DNA of 37,431 nt from Pseudomonadota bacterium. Its GTDB lineage: Bacteria > Desulfobacterota > Desulfarculia > Desulfarculales > Desulfarculaceae. A model generated the notes under the pieces. The model saw only the letters and a program-made list of their open reading frames with translations, did no database searches and was not told where the DNA came from. The position numbers and the translations under genes are program-made. Where the stretch lies: contig JAHJPG010000029.1 of assembly GCA_018819925.1 (NCBI GenBank), positions 1-37,431 on the forward strand. Reading direction: 5' to 3'. Positions 1 to 14,724 of this stretch are shown piece after piece; positions within the stretch are counted from its first letter, which is position 1; each line of letters starts with the position of its first letter.

Positions 1-261
1 CAGGACGAGACCCAGGGCGAGGACGGCCGGCGGGTGCGCAACTGGGACAGCTGCATGAGCTGGCTTTTCACCATGCACGGCACCGGCCACAACCCCCGTG
101 GGACCAAGCTGGACCGGGTGCGCCAGCGCTTCATGCACAAGTTTAAATACATCCCGGCCAAACGTGGCGGGGAGATCGGCTGCGTGGGCTGCGGGCGTTG
201 CGTGCAGCTTTGCCCGGTGAACATCGATGTGCGCCGCGTGGTCAACGACATGAACGCTTAA
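1..261 (+). CDS. C-terminal end of an AsrA/HydB-like 4Fe-4S subunit (5' truncated)
   Basis: Reading frame 1 is open from the first base to a TAA stop, so the gene begins outside the window. The visible 86 residues contain a DSC-x-x-WLFTMHGTGHNPRG stretch and a CVGCGRCVQLCP ferredoxin motif. This pattern matches the C-terminus of anaerobic sulfite reductase subunit A, sulfhydrogenase beta subunits and FlxB/FlxC-type proteins (family knowledge). Such subunits carry electrons through [4Fe-4S] clusters between a flavin subunit and a partner enzyme in the cytoplasm. The next gene, 17 bases downstream, encodes exactly the expected flavin subunit, which supports a beta-gamma electron-input pair. Which enzyme they serve cannot be decided without the upstream sequence; the HdrD-like gene that follows favours an Hdr/Flx-type complex over a sulfite reductase. 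Confidence 0.8.
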   Translation, partial: QDETQGEDGRRVRNWDSCMSWLFTMHGTGHNPRGTKLDRVRQRFMHKFKYIPAKRGGEIGCVGCGRCVQLCPVNIDVRRVVNDMNA

Positions 262-278
262 GGCAAGGTCCAATAGCT

Positions 279-1118
279 ATGCGAAATACGTATATACCCT
301 ATCCGGTGCGCATCAAGCAGACGCGGGTGGAGACCGAGGACAAGATGCTCAAGTCATTTTTGCTTGAGTTTCTTAACGACTCGGACGCCGAGGCCTTTGC
401 CTACACCCCCGGCCAGTTCGCCGAACTGAGCGTCTCCGGCTATGGCGAGATTCCCATTGGTATCGCCTCCAGTCCCACCGAGGGCAACGACTTGCTGTTC
501 ACGGTGAACAAGGTGGGCAGCGTGACCAACAAGCTGCACACCATGTCCGAGGGAGACATCATGGGGGTGCGCGGCCCCCTGGGCAACAGCTATCCCCTCA
601 AGGACATGGAGGGCAAGAACGTGGTGATCGTGGCCGGCGGCTTCGCGGTGACCACCCTGCGCTCCACCATGAACTGGTTGCTGCACCCGGACCACCGCGA
701 CAAGTACGGCGACATCACCTTCATCTACGGGGCGCGCACCCCGGGCATGCTGCTCTACACCGAGGAGTGGACCGAGTGGCAGAACAGCGGCCAGGCCAAC
801 GTGAACGTGACCATCGACCGCGAGGCACAAGGCTGGGATGGCCTGGTGGGCTTCGTGCCCACGGTCACCGAGCAGGTGGCGCCCAAGCCCGACAACGCGG
901 TGGCGCTTATCTGCGGCCCGCCGGTGATGATCCGCTTCACCCAGCCGGTTTTCGACAAGTTGGGCTGGCAGCCGGAACAGATCGTGATGAGCCTGGAGAA
1001 CCGGATGAAGTGCGGCATCGGCATTTGCGGCCGCTGCAACGTGGGCCCGGAGTACGTTTGCAAGGACGGCCCGGTTTTTACCAAGGCCCAGCTGGATAAG
1101 CTGCCGAAGGAATACTAG
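279..1118 (+). CDS. FAD/NAD(P)-binding [2Fe-2S] oxidoreductase subunit (AsrB/HydG/FlxA-like)
   Basis: A 279-residue protein starting at ATG 279. An in-frame upstream extension to 198 overlaps the previous gene and is not needed. It has a ferredoxin-reductase-like FAD domain (TPGQFAELS, EIPIGIASSP), an NAD(P)-binding half beginning at VVIVAGGFAVTTLRS, and a C-terminal [2Fe-2S] motif CGIGICGRCNVG...VCKDGPVF as in PyrK/AsrB/HydG proteins. The expected role is to pass electrons between NAD(P)H and the Fe-S subunit encoded just upstream. In Flx-Hdr complexes of sulfate reducers (family knowledge) such a subunit feeds heterodisulfide-reductase-type proteins, and an HdrD-like gene follows here. The nucleotide-binding glycine loop is GGFAVTTL rather than the common GGIGLAPL type, so NAD versus NADP preference is not predictable by eye. 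Confidence 0.88.
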   Translation: MRNTYIPYPVRIKQTRVETEDKMLKSFLLEFLNDSDAEAFAYTPGQFAELSVSGYGEIPIGIASSPTEGNDLLFTVNKVGSVTNKLHTMSEGDIMGVRGPLGNSYPLKDMEGKNVVIVAGGFAVTTLRSTMNWLLHPDHRDKYGDITFIYGARTPGMLLYTEEWTEWQNSGQANVNVTIDREAQGWDGLVGFVPTVTEQVAPKPDNAVALICGPPVMIRFTQPVFDKLGWQPEQIVMSLENRMKCGIGICGRCNVGPEYVCKDGPVFTKAQLDKLPKEY

Positions 1119-1276: not shown

Positions 1277-2599
1277 ATGAGTCAAGAGCCGATCAAACTG
1301 GGGAAGCGCGAATCCAAACTTCGCGTTGATCCCAAATGGGCCGATGTGTGCCTCACATGCGGCACGTGCGCCGGCGGCTGTCCGGTCACCGGAGTCGACG
1401 GCATGGACCCCCGCAAGGCGGTGCGCATGGCTGCCTTGGGGTTGGACGACGAACTGATCAACTCTCGCTTCCCCTGGATCTGCACCCTGTGCGGCCGCTG
1501 CGAGCGCGCCTGCCCCATGGGTGTGGAGATCCTGGCCATGATGCGCACGGCCCGCGGCCTGCGCGAGCGGGACAAGGTGCCGGGCCCCATCCACAAGGGC
1601 ACCATGATGTCCATGGAGCGGGGCAACAACCTGGGCATCCCTTACGACGACTGGCTTTTCTTGCTTGCCGACATGGGCAAGGAGATGGAGGACGAAGGGT
1701 TCCCCGGCTTCTACGTGCCCGTGGACAAAGTGGGCGCCCGGGTGATCTCAACGGTCAACTCCAAGGAGCCCTTCGGCGAGCCAGACGACATGAAGTTCTG
1801 GTGGAAGATATACTACGCCGCCAAGGAAAACTGGACCATTCCCAGCGAGAAATGGGAAGGCGTGACCTGGGGCCTGTTCGGCGGGGACGACGAGTCCATG
1901 AAGGAGCAGGCCCGGCGGGTGGTGGAAAACGCCCGCAAGGTGAAGGCCGAGGTCTTACTCTTACCAGAGTGAGGCCACGCCTATTATGGAACTAGGCTTA
2001 GTTTCAAAAAGTGGTTCCCCGAGGTTTTCGAAGAGTTCAAAGTCATGAACATCTTCGAGTTGATGATGGAATACATCAAAGAGGGCCGGGTCAAGATTGA
2101 CCGCGAAAAATTCGCTGGCAAGCTGGCCACGGTTCACGATCCCTGCAACTACGGCCGTAAGAGCGAAAAGGCCTTCGGCAAGGCCTATTACGACGAGATC
2201 CGCTGGATCACCGACCAGATTTGCGACACCTGGGTGGATACCTATCCCACCAAGGAAAACAACTTCTGCTGCGGAGCCGGCGGCGGCGCCTGGGCCATGC
2301 CCTACACCAACGAGCGGCTCTACTACGGCCGCAAGAAGGCCCAGCAGATCGCCGACACCGGCGCCGAGTTGGTGATTGCTCCTTGCCATAACTGCCGCGA
2401 CCAGATCATGAAGGCCTTGACCAAGGAATTCGACTTGGAGATCGAGACCTTCTATCTTTGGGAGCTGTTGGCCGAAGCCATCATCGTCGAGCCCTGGAAC
2501 GAGGAAGAGGTGGAAAAGGCCCACGCCGAGGCGGCGGAGCAGTGGGAGCGCTTTGGCGTCGAGCTGGAAGACGAAGAAGAATGGACGCCCCCCGAATAG
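1277..2599 (+). CDS. HdrD/DsrK/TmcB-like CCG-domain Fe-S oxidoreductase, predicted selenoprotein (UGA at codon 232)
   Basis: ATG 1277 follows GGGAG by 8 bases. The frame runs to TAG 2597-2599 if the in-frame TGA at 1970-1972 is decoded, giving 440 residues. Domains: two [4Fe-4S] motifs C25-x2-C28-x2-C31-x3-C35-P and C69-x2-C72-x2-C75-x3-C79-P; a linker; Sec232 in PE-U-GHAYYG; then C290 (HDPCNYGR), C331-C332 (FCCGAGGG) and C370-x2-C373 (PCHNC), the PF02754 pattern of HdrB/HdrD/DsrK. Relatives carry Cys at position 232 in PECGHA (from memory). The likely role is thiol/disulfide or quinone-linked electron transfer through a non-cubane cluster, supplied by the flavin and Fe-S subunits upstream. 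It is shorter than typical DsrK and lacks obvious membrane segments. The alternatives, a nonsense mutation or two separate genes, are much less likely because the frame is intact, homology continues across the UGA and a SECIS-like hairpin follows. Confidence 0.85.
1970..1972 (+). other. Recoded UGA, selenocysteine codon
   Basis: This in-frame TGA replaces the Cys codon of the family motif PE-C-GHA. Codons on both sides (TTA, CCA, GGA, ACT, AGG, CTT, AGT) are ones the surrounding genes avoid. That is the expected footprint when the coding sequence must also fold as an RNA signal. Confidence 0.85.
1984..2009 (+). promoter_or_regulatory. Bacterial SECIS-like stem-loop
   Basis: The core stem pairs 1987-1994 (TGGAACTA) with 1999-2006 (TAGTTTCA), eight pairs including one G-U, and closes a four-base loop GGCT at 1995-1998. 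Beyond an A-A mismatch, two more pairs (1984-1985 with 2008-2009) extend it. The loop starts 22 bases after the UGA and begins with GG, matching the known bacterial SECIS rules for SelB binding (loop about 16-37 bases downstream, G in the first two loop positions). A competing stem GCCTA/TAGGC at 1979-1983/1993-1997 is also possible. Confidence 0.75.
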
Positions 2600-8746: not shown

Positions 8747-11191
8747 CTATTGTTGGGCGGATGGTTGGGAGGGGGCCGCAGGGGCTGGGCTGGGGGCCGC
8801 GTTAAAGGATTCGCTACGCAAGAAGTCCTGGGGCTTGCCGTCCTGCCCGCCGGCCTGGCCATGGCCCGGGCTGGGCTGGCGGCCTTCCTTGAAGGACTCG
8901 AAGAAGCCTCCGTTGCCGCCGGCGGCGATGGGCAGGCCGGTGTCGCGGTTAACCCGGACAAAGACCACGCCGTCGGGAACCGGGAAGTCTAGCGCCGGTT
9001 GCCCCTTTAGGGCTTGGCCCATGAACTCTTGCCAGATGGGTCCGGCGGCCCGGGCTCCGGTTTCCTTTTTGCCCAGGGGCTGGTTGTCGTCCTGGCCCAC
9101 CCACACCCCGCAGATCAGCTGGGGGCTGTAGCCCACGAACCAGGCGTCGCGCAGGTCGTTGGTGGTGCCGGTCTTGCCGGCCAGGGGGCGCTTCAGGGCC
9201 CGCATGCGCCGGCCGGTGCCATCTTCAACGACCCCCTTGAGCAGATGGGTGACCAGGTAGGCGGTCACGGGGGAGATGACCCGCCGCTGTTGGGGTGAGG
9301 CCAGATATATCTCTCCCCCGTCACGGTCGATCACTTTTTCCACGAACACGGGGTCCATGAGGATGCCCTGGTCGGCGAAGACCCCGTAGGCCCGGGTCAG
9401 TTCCAACAGGCTCGTTCCGCTGGTGCCCAAGGCCAGGGATAGGTTGGGAGCCAAGTCGCTGGCGATCCCCAGGCGGTGGGCGTAGTTGATGGCGTAACCG
9501 AGCCCCAGCTCGCTCAGGAGCTTCACCGTGACCACGTTTCGCGAGTGGGCCAGGGCCTGGCGCATGGTGGTGGGCCCATAAAAGCGGCTGCTGTAGTTCT
9601 TGGGCCGCCACTTTTCACCGGGGTTCACCGGGTCGTCGTAGGTGACCGGCGCATCCAAAATCTGGGTGGAAGAGGTGTAGACCAGCTTGGGGTGGTCCAG
9701 GGCCGAGGCGTAGATAAAGGGCTTGAAGGCGCTGCCCGGCTGGCGGCGGGCCTGTAGGGCCCGGTTGTATTGGCTTTTGCGGAAATCATACCCGCCGATC
9801 ATCACCCGAACCCGGCCGCTGACGTTTTCCATGGCCAGCAACGCCGCCTGGGTCACCGGCTCTTGCAACAGCTCCAAGCTCCAGGACCCGCTCTGGGGCG
9901 AGAACTTGAGAGGGCGCACCAACACCACATCGCCGGGGGCGAGCACCTCCTTGATGTCTTTTAGCCCCGGGCGGGGGGCGGAAAGATCTTTGACCGGCGG
10001 CCGGGCCCAGCGCACGTCCTCTAAGCTGATGTAGCCCCGGGCCGGGCCCAGGCGCAGCTCGGCCCGCTGACCCTGGCCGTCCACCGCCACCACCACCGCC
10101 TGGCGCTTACTACCCGGCTCCAAGTCGCCCGGCCCCACCGGCTCCGCCTTGGCCTGGGCCAGCTCCGCCGGGCCCAGGCGCTTCAGGGGCCCGAAATAGC
10201 CCTGGCGGCGGGTGAGTTGAGCCAGGCCCATGGCGATGGCCGTTCGGCCGGCGGCGCTCAGGCGAGGGTCGCAAGCGGTGTGGACCGTGAGGCCGCCTTC
10301 GTATAGCAGCTTGCGTCCGTAGCGCTCCTCCAGCCATTGGCGCACCGTCTCTTCATAGTAGGGCGCCACCACGGTTTGGGGCTGGTGCAACTGCACGTCC
10401 ACTGCCTGGTTGGCGGCCGCCTGGGCCTGCTCCTTGGTGATGAAGCCTTCTTCGGCCATGCGCCCGATGACATAGACCTGGCGGGTGCGGGCCCGGCGGG
10501 GGTGCCTCAGGGGGCTGTATCGGCTGGGGGCCTGCACCAGGCCGGCCAAAAGCGCCGCTTCGGCCAGGTTCATATCCTTGGCCTGCTTGCCGAAATAGGT
10601 CCGGGCGGCGGCTTCCACCCCGTAGGTCCCATGTCCCAAATATATCTGGTTGAGGTAGATGTAGAGGATCTCTTCCTTGTTTAGGTTTTGCTCCATTTGC
10701 CAGGCAAAGACCATCTCCTTGAGCTTGGCCAGCCAAGCCTTGGCCGGGGTGTGCAAGAGCCCCTGGGCCACCTGTTGGCTGATGGTGCTGGCTCCCTGCA
10801 CCACCCGGCCGGCCCGGAGGTTGGCCAGGGCGGCGCGCAGGATGCCCGTGAGGTCGATGCCCTGATGCTTGAAGAAGCTGCCGTCCGCGGCGGCCACGAA
10901 GGCCAAAACCACATGGCGGGGCACCTCGTTCATGGGCACCAGATAGCGGCGTTCCAGGTAGTAGCGGGCCATGAGGGAGCCATCGGCGGCCAGCACCCGG
11001 GTCACCGTGGGGGGCCGGTAGTCGGTGAGGCTGTCCACCCGGGGCAGGTTGTCGGTGATGTAGAACCAGCCCACCACCCCGGCTCCGGCGGCCAGGATGG
11101 CCAGCACCAGCAGGGCGGAGCCCCCCCAAAGCAGCAGACGCATCAGCCGGCTTTTGCGGCGCCGAGTTGGTTTCGTTTGAGAAGTTGGCAA
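8747..11191 (-). CDS. mrcA: Class A penicillin-binding protein (PBP1A type) with altered glycosyltransferase site
   Basis: An 814-residue inner-membrane protein. It starts at TTG 11191 behind GGAGG (6-base spacing), followed by a basic tail and one membrane anchor (residues 17-45). The GT51 domain (about 60-230) keeps GASTISQQVAQ and EEILYIYLNQIYLG. Its first motif, however, reads AADGSFFKHQG, with Ala102 (GCG, 10886-10888) where the catalytic Glu of the usual ED-x-x-F motif should be. An OB-like insert spans about 330-440. The transpeptidase domain is intact: S487-A-F-K490, S550-R-N552 and K673-T-G. The protein should crosslink peptidoglycan, while glycan polymerisation is doubtful. The C-terminus is a low-complexity Pro/Ala/Ser tail. 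It is divergent from hypA. The symbol is by family. Confidence 0.9.
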   Translation of the reverse strand: MPTSQTKPTRRRKSRLMRLLLWGGSALLVLAILAAGAGVVGWFYITDNLPRVDSLTDYRPPTVTRVLAADGSLMARYYLERRYLVPMNEVPRHVVLAFVAAADGSFFKHQGIDLTGILRAALANLRAGRVVQGASTISQQVAQGLLHTPAKAWLAKLKEMVFAWQMEQNLNKEEILYIYLNQIYLGHGTYGVEAAARTYFGKQAKDMNLAEAALLAGLVQAPSRYSPLRHPRRARTRQVYVIGRMAEEGFITKEQAQAAANQAVDVQLHQPQTVVAPYYEETVRQWLEERYGRKLLYEGGLTVHTACDPRLSAAGRTAIAMGLAQLTRRQGYFGPLKRLGPAELAQAKAEPVGPGDLEPGSKRQAVVVAVDGQGQRAELRLGPARGYISLEDVRWARPPVKDLSAPRPGLKDIKEVLAPGDVVLVRPLKFSPQSGSWSLELLQEPVTQAALLAMENVSGRVRVMIGGYDFRKSQYNRALQARRQPGSAFKPFIYASALDHPKLVYTSSTQILDAPVTYDDPVNPGEKWRPKNYSSRFYGPTTMRQALAHSRNVVTVKLLSELGLGYAINYAHRLGIASDLAPNLSLALGTSGTSLLELTRAYGVFADQGILMDPVFVEKVIDRDGGEIYLASPQQRRVISPVTAYLVTHLLKGVVEDGTGRRMRALKRPLAGKTGTTNDLRDAWFVGYSPQLICGVWVGQDDNQPLGKKETGARAAGPIWQEFMGQALKGQPALDFPVPDGVVFVRVNRDTGLPIAAGGNGGFFESFKEGRQPSPGHGQAGGQDGKPQDFLRSESFNAAPSPAPAAPSQPSAQQ

Positions 11192-11266
11192 CTTAAACCT
11201 CCAAAACCGCTATTGGTCAAGTCTACCAGACCCCGGCGGCCCAGCCAAGCCGGGCGGGAGGCCGCC

Positions 11267-11296
11267 TTGACCCTCTTCGGCCCAGCGTGCTAAATT
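11267..11296 (+). promoter_or_regulatory. Candidate promoter of the hyp operon
   Basis: TTGACC (11267-11272), an 18-base spacer and TAAATT (11291-11296) lie 38 bases before the GTG start of hypA. Confidence 0.5.
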
Positions 11297-11334
11297 CAAA
11301 AGTCCCTTAACATGTTCAGCTTGCGGGAAAAAAC

Positions 11335-11676
11335 GTGCATGAACTATCCATCGCCCAATCGCTGCTGGGCATAGTCCTTCAAGAAGCCGGCCGCCACGGG
11401 GCGAACCGGGTGACCAAGGTGGCGGTGAAGATCGGGGCGCTGGCCAGCGTGGTGCCCAGCTCGCTGACTTTCAGCTTCGATTTAATCAAGGAGGGCACTC
11501 CGGCCGCCGATGCGGTGCTGGAGATAGAGCGGGTGCCGGCCATGGGGATTTGCCGGGCCTGCGGGGCCCGGATGGACATGAGCGGCCTGGTGGAGGCCTG
11601 CCCGGACTGCGGCTCCAAGGAGATCGAACTCAGCTCCGGCCAGGAGCTTTACGTGGATCACATCGAGGCGGAATAG
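11335..11676 (+). CDS. hypA: Hydrogenase nickel-insertion protein HypA
   Basis: A 113-residue protein starting at GTG 11335. The start is fixed by biology, because the family needs His as residue 2 (MHELSIA) to bind nickel. A zinc site is formed by two CxxC pairs, CRAC near residue 73 and CPDC near residue 88. HypA delivers Ni to the large subunit of [NiFe] hydrogenase together with HypB, whose gene follows 18 bases later. It heads the maturation operon. It is of normal family length. Confidence 0.95.
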   Translation: MHELSIAQSLLGIVLQEAGRHGANRVTKVAVKIGALASVVPSSLTFSFDLIKEGTPAADAVLEIERVPAMGICRACGARMDMSGLVEACPDCGSKEIELSSGQELYVDHIEAE

Positions 11677-11694
11677 ACCGCCGGGAGGGCTGGC

Positions 11695-12345
11695 ATGGCC
11701 GAGATCGAGGTGGGGCGCAACATCCTGGAAGCCAACCAGACCCTGGCCGAGGCGCTTCGGAAGCGTTTCGCCGCCCAGGGCATCAAGGTGCTCAACCTCA
11801 TCTCCAGCCCCGGGGCGGGCAAGACCAGCGTCTTGGAGCAGACCCTGAGGCGCCTGGGCGGGCGGCTCAGGTGCGCGGTGATAGAGGGGGACATCCAGAC
11901 CGACGAGGACGCCCAGCGGGTGGCCGCCTGCGGGGTTCCAGCGGTGCAGATCCAGACCCAGGGGGCCTGCCACCTGGACGGCCCCATGATCGGCGAGGCC
12001 CTGGATGCCCTGGAACTGGAGGGCTTGGAGTTGCTCATCATCGAGAACGTGGGCAACTTGGTGTGCCCGGTGGACTTTGACCTGGGCGAGGACATGAAGG
12101 TGGCGGTGCTATCGGTGACCGAGGGCGACGACAAGCCCTCCAAGTACCCGGCCCTGTTCCGGGCCGCCGGGGTGCTTCTGGTCAACAAGATAGATCTGCT
12201 GCCCTACATAGACTGCGACCTGGAGCGCATCCACGCCACTTGCCGGACGCTCAATCCCCAACAGAAGGTGTTCGACATCTCCTGCCGCACCGGGGAGGGG
12301 CTGGGGGACTGGGTGACCTGGCTGGAGAGCTGGGTCAGGGGTTAG
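11695..12345 (+). CDS. hypB: Hydrogenase nickel-incorporation GTPase HypB
   Basis: A 216-residue SIMIBI-class GTPase with ATG 11695 behind GGGAGG. Visible motifs are P-loop SSPGAGKTS (about residues 38-46), IEGDIQTDEDA, the metal-binding ENVGNLVCP and the base-recognition NKIDLLP. The N-terminus is short: it lacks both the poly-His stretch and the CxxCGC nickel site found in some HypB proteins, so only the GTPase-domain metal site remains. HypB drives nickel transfer from HypA in the cytoplasm using GTP. It sits between hypA and hypF with almost no gap. Confidence 0.95.
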   Translation: MAEIEVGRNILEANQTLAEALRKRFAAQGIKVLNLISSPGAGKTSVLEQTLRRLGGRLRCAVIEGDIQTDEDAQRVAACGVPAVQIQTQGACHLDGPMIGEALDALELEGLELLIIENVGNLVCPVDFDLGEDMKVAVLSVTEGDDKPSKYPALFRAAGVLLVNKIDLLPYIDCDLERIHATCRTLNPQQKVFDISCRTGEGLGDWVTWLESWVRG

Positions 12346-12348
12346 ACA

Positions 12349-14724
12349 TTGAATTCAGGGCGGGCGCGCGGCCAAGCCCAGGTGAAGGGCGTGGTGCAGG
12401 GGGTGGGCTTCCGCCCCTTTGTCTACAACCTGGCACGGGGCCTGGGGCTCACCGGCTGGGTGGGCAACACCGCCGCCGGGGTGGAGTTGGCCGTGCAGGG
12501 GAGCCCTCAGGCGGTGGAGGAGTTCTTTGGCCGCCTGATTTCCCAAGCCCCGCCCCTGGCCGACATCCACGAGGTTAATCGCAACGAGGCCGCGCCCGAG
12601 CCGGGCGAGAGCGAGTTCACCATCCGGGCCTCCCAGGCCGGCAGGCGCAGCACCCTGATCAGCCCGGACGTGGCGGTGTGCGAGGCCTGCCTGGCCGAGA
12701 TGAACGACCCCGCCGACCGCCGCCACGGCTACGCCTTCATCAACTGCACCCACTGCGGCCCCCGCTACACCATAATCCAAGACCTGCCCTACGACCGGCC
12801 CCAGACCACCATGCGCGCCTTCACCCTGTGCCCCGCCTGCCGGGCGGAGTACGAGGACCCCGGCGACCGCCGCTTCCACGCCCAGCCCAACGCCTGCCCG
12901 GTCTGCGGCCCCCGTTTGTGGCTGGCCGACGCGGCTGGCAGTGAGCTTGACGAGCCCGATCCCGCCGCGGCGGCGGCAAGGGCCCTGGCCAACGGCAAGG
13001 TGCTGGCCGTCAAGGGCCTGGGCGGCTTTCACCTGGCCGTGGACGCCAGGAACCCGGAGGCAGTGGAGCGCCTCAGAAGCCGCAAGCACCGCGAGGAAAA
13101 GCCCCTGGCGGTGATGACCCCCGACCTGGAAGCGGCCCGCGCCCTGGCCGACCTGGACGACGACAGCGCCCAAGCCTTGGCCAGCCGGGAGCGGCCCATC
13201 GTGCTGGCTCCCCTGCGGCCCGAGGCCGGGCTGGCCCCGGGGGTGGCCCCGGGCAACCGTCTGCTGGGGCTGATGCTGCCCTACACCCCGCTGCACCACC
13301 TGCTGCTGGCCGAGGTGGCTCGCCTGGGGCTTACCGCGTTGGTGATGACCAGCGGCAACATCAGCGACGAGCCCATCTGCCTGGACAACCAAGAGGCGGC
13401 GCGCCGTTTGGGGACTTCGGCGGCGCGGGGGGCCATCGCCGACCTGATGCTCTTGCACGACCGGGATATCTACCTGCGCAGCGACGACTCGGTGGTGCGG
13501 GTGGTGGGCGGGGCCATGCGCCAGTTGCGCCGCTCGCGGGGCTTCGTGCCCTCGCCCCTGATCCTGCGGCCCGGGCTGATTCCCCAGGGCTGCCCGCCCA
13601 TCCTGGCCGTGGGCGGGCACCAGAAAAACACCCTGTGCCTGCTCAGGGGCCGGGAGGCCTTTGTCAGTCAGCACGTAGGCGATTTGGACGATTTGCGCAC
13701 CCTGGAGTTTTTCGAACTCACCGCCGGGCATTTGAGCCGCATCCTGGAGGCCCAGCCGGAGGTGATAGCCTGCGACCTGCACCCGGACTACCTCTCCAGC
13801 CAGTGGGCCGCCCGCCAGGGCCTGCCCCTGGTGAGGGTGCAGCACCACCACGCCCACGCGGTGGCGGTGATGGCCGAGCACGGCCTGGACGGCCAGGTGC
13901 TGGGCCTGTGCCTGGACGGCACCGGCTACGGCGACGACGCCAAGGTGTGGGGCGGCGAACTTTTGCAGGCCGGGCTGGCCGGGTATCGCCGCTTGGGGCG
14001 GCTGCGTCCCTTTTCCCTGCCCGGCGGCGAGGCGGCGGTCAAGGAGCCCTGGCGGGTGGGCCTGGCCCTGCTCATCGAGGCCATGGGGGCGGAGAGAGCG
14101 GCTGCATTGGATCTAAAAGTGCTGCGCGCCCACGGGGACAAGCTGGGCCTGGTGGGCAAGATGATGGGCCGTGGCCTAAACACCCCGCGCACCTCCAGCC
14201 TGGGGCGGCTGTTCGACGGCGTGGCCGCCCTGTGCGGCCTGCGCCTGGCCGTGGCCTACGAAGGCCAGGCGGCGGTGGAGCTGGAGCAGGCCATGACCGG
14301 GCCGGGCGAAACCGGCTATGGCTTTGCCCTGCGCGAAGACGGCGGCCTGTTGGAACTGGACTGGGCCTCGGTGATGGAAGAGATCGTGACTGACGTTTTG
14401 GCCGGGGCTGACCCGGCCAGGGTGAGCGCCCGTTTCCACGCCGGGCTCCTGGCCGGCCTGGCCGCCTGGGTGCTGGCCGGGGCTGAGTCCAGCGGCCTGG
14501 GCCGGGTGTGCCTGGGCGGGGGCTGCTTTATGAACGCCTGCCTGCTGGCCGGGCTGCCGCCTCTGTTGGAGGCCGCCGGGCTGGAGGTTTTTTCCGCCGC
14601 CCAGGCCCCGAGCAACGACGGCGGCCTGAGCCTGGGCCAGGCGGTGGCTGCGGCCAATGCCTGGGGGCAAGGCAGGCTGGCCGGAGACGTTACCGTTTTG
14701 ACCAGCGAGGAGGGCCCGGCGTGA
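12349..14724 (+). CDS. hypF: Carbamoyltransferase HypF
   Basis: A 791-residue protein, full length for the family, starting at TTG 12349 three bases after the hypB stop. Domains in order: acylphosphatase-like (GVVQGVGFRPFVYNLA, residues about 12-27), paired zinc fingers (CEACLAEM, CTHCGPRY, CPACRAEY, CPVCGPRL, about 108-190), a YrdC-like domain (roughly 200-390), and a Kae1-like carbamoyl-transfer domain with HHHAHAVAVMAEH and a C-terminal LGGGCFMNACL...SNDGGLSLGQA. HypF makes the thiocarbamate on the C-terminal Cys of HypE from carbamoyl phosphate and ATP, the precursor of the active-site CN ligands. Its stop overlaps the hypD start. Confidence 0.95.
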   Translation: MNSGRARGQAQVKGVVQGVGFRPFVYNLARGLGLTGWVGNTAAGVELAVQGSPQAVEEFFGRLISQAPPLADIHEVNRNEAAPEPGESEFTIRASQAGRRSTLISPDVAVCEACLAEMNDPADRRHGYAFINCTHCGPRYTIIQDLPYDRPQTTMRAFTLCPACRAEYEDPGDRRFHAQPNACPVCGPRLWLADAAGSELDEPDPAAAAARALANGKVLAVKGLGGFHLAVDARNPEAVERLRSRKHREEKPLAVMTPDLEAARALADLDDDSAQALASRERPIVLAPLRPEAGLAPGVAPGNRLLGLMLPYTPLHHLLLAEVARLGLTALVMTSGNISDEPICLDNQEAARRLGTSAARGAIADLMLLHDRDIYLRSDDSVVRVVGGAMRQLRRSRGFVPSPLILRPGLIPQGCPPILAVGGHQKNTLCLLRGREAFVSQHVGDLDDLRTLEFFELTAGHLSRILEAQPEVIACDLHPDYLSSQWAARQGLPLVRVQHHHAHAVAVMAEHGLDGQVLGLCLDGTGYGDDAKVWGGELLQAGLAGYRRLGRLRPFSLPGGEAAVKEPWRVGLALLIEAMGAERAAALDLKVLRAHGDKLGLVGKMMGRGLNTPRTSSLGRLFDGVAALCGLRLAVAYEGQAAVELEQAMTGPGETGYGFALREDGGLLELDWASVMEEIVTDVLAGADPARVSARFHAGLLAGLAAWVLAGAESSGLGRVCLGGGCFMNACLLAGLPPLLEAAGLEVFSAAQAPSNDGGLSLGQAVAAANAWGQGRLAGDVTVLTSEEGPA

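Follow-up and report, generated by a model that had tools for sequence, protein, structure and literature searches.

The window analysed here, a stretch of 37,431 nt from the genome of a Desulfarculaceae bacterium of the sulfate-reducer type, contains close to its 5' end a single frame of 440 codons, which runs from the ATG at 1277 to the TAG at 2597-2599 and is interrupted by one internal stop, the TGA of codon 232, within VLLLPE-U-GHAYYGTR. Standard ORF calling splits this gene into 1262-1972 and 2045-2599. It turned out that Pfam places Fer4 (4Fe-4S dicluster) domains N-terminal of codon 232 and a CCG domain (residues 285-377) C-terminal of it, and that homologues of about 35-100% identity align across the TGA. 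The earlier note had described two open stretches of one frame, divided by TGA 1970-1972 alone, with homology unbroken past it and two fragments expected from gene callers; its coordinates and description were right, and the domains on both sides, the spanning homologues and the two called ORFs bear it out. The features of the locus are collected in Table 1.

Table 1. Features predicted at the locus (positions in the window)
Feature	Position	Strand	Basis
AsrA/HydB-like 4Fe-4S subunit, 3' end, cut by the contig start	1..258	+	96.5% identical to asrA342 protein of L114; full L114 gene has Fer4_22
FAD/NAD(P)-binding subunit (AsrB / sulfhydrogenase-gamma / FlxA-like), same operon	198..1118	+	NCBIfam matches
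Predicted selenoprotein gene, fused HdrC+HdrB-like, 440 aa with UGA as Sec	1277..2599	+	Single-TGA frame; Pfam Fer4_8 and CCG above gathering scores; homologues
The same gene: superfamily HdrD/HmcF/TmcB/DsrK; literature name GlpC / Fe-S oxidoreductase-like	1277..2599	+	
Two 4Fe-4S motifs (C25-C35, C69-C79), HdrC-like domain	1349..1516	+	Pfam; 8 Cys invariant in alignment; PDB HdrC chains
UGA codon 232, predicted selenocysteine	1970..1972	+	81/83 TGA, 2/83 TGC; Cys/Sec-only column in 50 proteins
Predicted bacterial SECIS hairpin, 16-33 nt after UGA; loop GGCU 1995-1998, bulged U 2004	1988..2005	+	47-sequence alignment
C-terminal CCG domain, five Cys (C290, C331, C332, C370, C373) of predicted noncubane 4Fe-4S site	2129..2407	+	Pfam CCG 285-377; Cys invariant; HdrB/EtfD structural matches

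The AsrB-like gene adjoins the selenoprotein gene in the Desulfarculaceae loci whose contig extends that far. In a congener whose genome is one contig (L114), the gene order is hdrA(Sec)-mvhD(Sec)-4Fe-4S subunit-AsrA/HydB-like-AsrB/HydG-like-hdrD(Sec). Since hdrA (11013-14036, minus strand, 1008 aa, U in NDCAMUIIS) and mvhD (10551-10988, minus strand, U in GUHPGDCHY) also carry an in-frame TGA, each at the known Sec position, this operon comprises three selenoprotein genes. The Sec of MvhD is kept in six further loci (L101, L049, L050, L113, L056 and L067) and replaced by Cys in L062. The operon of L114 has the gene content of the Flx-Hdr type, namely HdrA, an MvhD/FlxD-like protein, an NAD(P)H-binding FlxA-like subunit and FeS subunits, and we take the complex of the window protein to be comparable to Flx-Hdr complexes, with the fused subunit in the place that HdrBC occupies there. 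This arrangement suggests an NAD(P)H-linked, HdrA-based complex, which may bifurcate electrons. The neighbours vary by clade; elsewhere hdrA and mvhD come after the selenoprotein gene (e.g. L074, L076, L092 and L094), which is the published operon arrangement glpC-hdrA-frhD (PMC1794560). Besides, in Desulforhabdus sp. TSK (L112:4001-5600) a frame passes from the N-terminal half of the selenoprotein (PEUGHAYY) into HdrA (LVEKQSAIGG), and a scrambled hdrA lies further along; this merged frame arose either by fusion through a deletion or by faulty assembly.

To figure out how the UGA is read, we compared the gene with its relatives in a scan of the phylum (395 genomes, with matches in 201) and in a second collection, which yielded 67 loci. 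The best relatives in the phylum scan have TGA in every case, and of the 83 distinct sequences on which codon 232 was mapped, the most remote being about 52% identical, 81 had TGA and the other two TGC. All eight genomes of the genus that were examined carry the in-frame TGA, which together with the 81 relatives rules out chance or a sequencing error. The column of residue 232 holds nothing but Cys or Sec in an alignment of 50 proteins, among them paralogues that have only Cys (37-53% identity). The machinery for selenocysteine is complete in the genome, with tRNA-Sec (selC, 73.2 bits), SelB (389.5 bits), SelA (621.3 bits) and SelD (369.5 bits) all over their curated cut-offs, and the selD gene itself has a TGA. 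In the two relatives with a Cys codon (L087 and L091), the neighbouring hdrA is also without Sec, having SSMC or CSMC in place of CAMU. A paralogue with Cys (G000:C109:44545-46344; 47% identical) is TGA-free and lies directly 3' of a TGA-free mvhD, and is possibly a selenium-free counterpart.

Downstream of the UGA, the relatives share a hairpin that appears in two subtypes, differing in register, inside one protein family. Subtype 1 (47 distinct sequences, the window among them) has a loop of GGCU, GGUU or similar; its stem closes at +17/+33, and the bulged U at +32 is invariant. In subtype 2 (24 sequences) the loop has five bases and the bulge is absent. The GG of the loop is found in nearly all relatives. 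In subtype 1, changes on both sides occur at three pairs, C-G to U-A (n=18), G-C to A-U (n=6) and C-G to G-C (n=11), giving 35 doubly changed cells against a mean of 11.8 in shuffled alignments, none of 500 shuffles being as high. Such covariation counts are inflated by the kinship of the sequences; slid controls, which have equal kinship, are 20-47% paired, against 90.3% for the subtype 1 structure. The C-G to U-A change of the stem coincides with a Gly/Ser change at residue 242, which would be expected of codons constrained by RNA pairing. At residue 240, nearly all relatives with Sec have Arg and both relatives with a Cys codon have Leu; because of this replacement the latter two lack the GG of the loop.

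In the window, the 81-nt stretch has a minimum-energy fold other than this hairpin, which is thus supported by comparison. Among the relatives, the SECIS region did not stand out by synonymous-site conservation alone, because the two subtypes use different codons; covariation did detect it. We also considered an 11-bp perfect hairpin at about 1951-1976 with the UGA in its 3' arm. It is specific to the window, its pairs are not kept in the relatives and controls with synonymous codons gave a mean z of -0.37 (80 sequences), and it is probably due to chance.

The features by which a bacterial selenoprotein is recognised were thus found together, namely a UGA aligned with Cys, a downstream SECIS with loop G and covariation, and selA, selB, selC and selD. 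On these comparisons, UGA232 is almost certainly decoded as Sec by SelB and tRNA-Sec with the help of the hairpin about 16-33 nt downstream. The earlier note had predicted a selenoprotein with the UGA at the Cys of the PECGHA motif of relatives, and had named a homologue alignment, a search for the four sel genes and a SECIS search as checks; the prediction stands on all three, as no residue besides Cys or Sec occurs at position 232, all four genes are present and compensatory changes support the hairpin. Under the standard code the frame does end at the TGA and gene callers yield two ORFs, but a true stop or nonsense mutation, with a truncated protein or a pseudogene as its result, is extremely improbable in view of the identical TGA in nearly all distinct relatives, the strong conservation of the CCG domain 3' of it at the protein level and the covarying SECIS. 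Reading of the UGA as another amino acid, e.g. as Trp by a near-cognate tRNA or under genetic code 4/25, could open any frame, yet we give it next to no credence, for the homologues show Cys at the site and never Trp or Gly, the complete Sec machinery and a SECIS are present, and further genes of the lineage, e.g. mvhD, appear to terminate at TGA.

For the assignment to a family, the closest NCBIfam models are HmcF (207.2 bits against a cut-off of 750), TmcB (183.7 against 735) and DsrK (128.7 against 400), all far below their cut-offs. The window protein shares with these proteins the domain order and the Cys position of the PECGHA-type motif, but it has Sec where they have Cys and scores only 129-207 bits against cut-offs of 400-750. 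HmcF, TmcB and DsrK are subunits of membrane complexes. The label HdrD/DsrK-like in the earlier note therefore holds for an HdrD-type protein of the DsrK superfamily, and not for DsrK, TmcB or HmcF proper. In the literature, a "Fe-S oxidoreductase-like protein" (PTHR43551/COG0247, GlpC) with the motif UGH is listed among the selenoproteins predicted with high confidence, its function being uncharacterised (PMC13188914, PMC9312934), and a count of 2006 has it in Syntrophobacter, Desulfotalea and Desulfovibrio (PMC1794560). Its published reference sequence is WP_174406253.1. The window protein has this motif, as PEUGHA in a Fer4+CCG protein, and resembles the family (PMC13188914, PMC1794560) in Sec-Gly-His, in its occurrence in Deltaproteobacteria and in the adjoining genes for Sec-HdrA and Sec-FrhD/MvhD. 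It differs in that, in the genus of the window, the gene ends an operon that also encodes AsrA/AsrB-like subunits and in which no gene for an FrhG/FrhA hydrogenase was seen. The genome paper of Desulfobacterium autotrophicum HRM2 names a Sec-containing HdrD4 (PMC2702500), which by its published description also has domains homologous to HdrC and HdrB in one soluble Sec protein. We have little doubt that the window protein belongs to this catalogued UGH family, and the kind of selenoprotein is not new, the family having been catalogued since about 2006.

As for the fold, the PDB contains HdrC chains that match residues 23-126, and the counterparts of the C-terminal part are HdrB and EtfD. With a mean pLDDT of 90.5, the AlphaFold model is closest to mycobacterial EtfD (Z 25.3 over 381 residues) and matches HdrB with Z 18.6-19.8 over about 240 residues; Foldseek/VIA matches to racemases (Z ~6) were taken as a common arrangement only. 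The protein is a fused HdrC+HdrB-like, HdrD-type soluble subunit, which shares with HdrB/HdrC of HdrABC and with EtfD the HdrC-like ferredoxin part and the CCG fold (Z 8 to 25). Both CCG sites are complete in HdrB, whereas in the window protein only the C-terminal one is. Between C79 and C290 there is no Cys, position 232 being Sec, so the N-terminal half is unable to bind a noncubane cluster of its own. Sec232 is not among the five Cys of the intact C-terminal site; as judged from sequence and fold, it alone is left of the degenerate N-terminal one. It lies at a helix start after a strand and a turn, and by motif and secondary structure its counterpart would be the first Cys in the CxxC of the N-terminal CCG half. 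EtfD, which differs in having a linear 3Fe-4S cluster beside the noncubane one, has Cys581-x-His583-Cys584 in the equivalent stretch; His583 is a ligand of the other, noncubane cluster, which is thereby rendered non-catalytic (PMC13083937). In the register given by motif spacing, His234 would match His583 and Ala235 the lost Cys. A loss similar to that of the other N-terminal CCG Cys has been reported for FadF and DgcB (PMC13083937).

Taken together, the best explanation, which we hold to be very probable, is a Sec-containing, soluble fused HdrC-HdrB-type iron-sulfur subunit, presumably of an HdrA-based complex. Within such a flavin-bifurcating complex, the protein would be the disulfide-reducing or electron-exit arm. 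Electrons of NAD(P)H would enter through the AsrB/FlxA-like subunit and be split by HdrA(Sec) together with MvhD(Sec), and the HdrC-like half would hand them to the noncubane 4Fe-4S cluster of the C-terminal CCG domain. We consider this route, with its substrate and partner read from the neighbours only, to be reasonably likely. Standing for the single Cys left in the degenerate N-terminal half, Sec232 would face the C-terminal noncubane cluster or complete its pocket, and could act as a low-pKa nucleophile or a reversible ligand in disulfide or electron exchange; this placement and role are put forward tentatively, the chances leaning slightly against them. A catalytic role of Sec beside the noncubane cluster is plausible, and Sec may alter the chemistry of that site, as the earlier note proposed.

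Since His234 would occupy the position of the ligating His of EtfD, the CCG cluster of the selenoprotein could instead be an electron relay, with Sec tuning its potential or oxygen tolerance and a flavoprotein or ferredoxin, not a disulfide, as the partner. EtfD being the closest fold, the His that closes its D2 cluster and the missing other N-terminal CCG Cys, as in FadF and DgcB, argue for such a relay, but Sec is usually retained for catalysis and the HdrA/MvhD neighbours indicate Hdr-type complexes. We regard a pure relay as rather doubtful, though it carries appreciable weight. Returning to the disulfide-reducing or electron-exit arm, its fullest form would be an HdrA-based NAD(P)H complex of Desulfarculaceae with three Sec subunits (HdrA, MvhD and the fused HdrD), in which a lone Sec replaces a whole second noncubane cluster and forms with the remaining one an active site for the reduction of a disulfide or of DsrC. 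In all its parts this is unlikely, and we mention it as a speculation.

In conclusion, automated annotation will split such genes in metagenome-assembled genomes and thereby lose a main redox subunit. For two decades the GlpC/UGH family has been listed without a characterised function; from the operon and the comparison of folds comes a testable proposal, in which a lone Sec would face one noncubane cluster in an HdrA-based complex.
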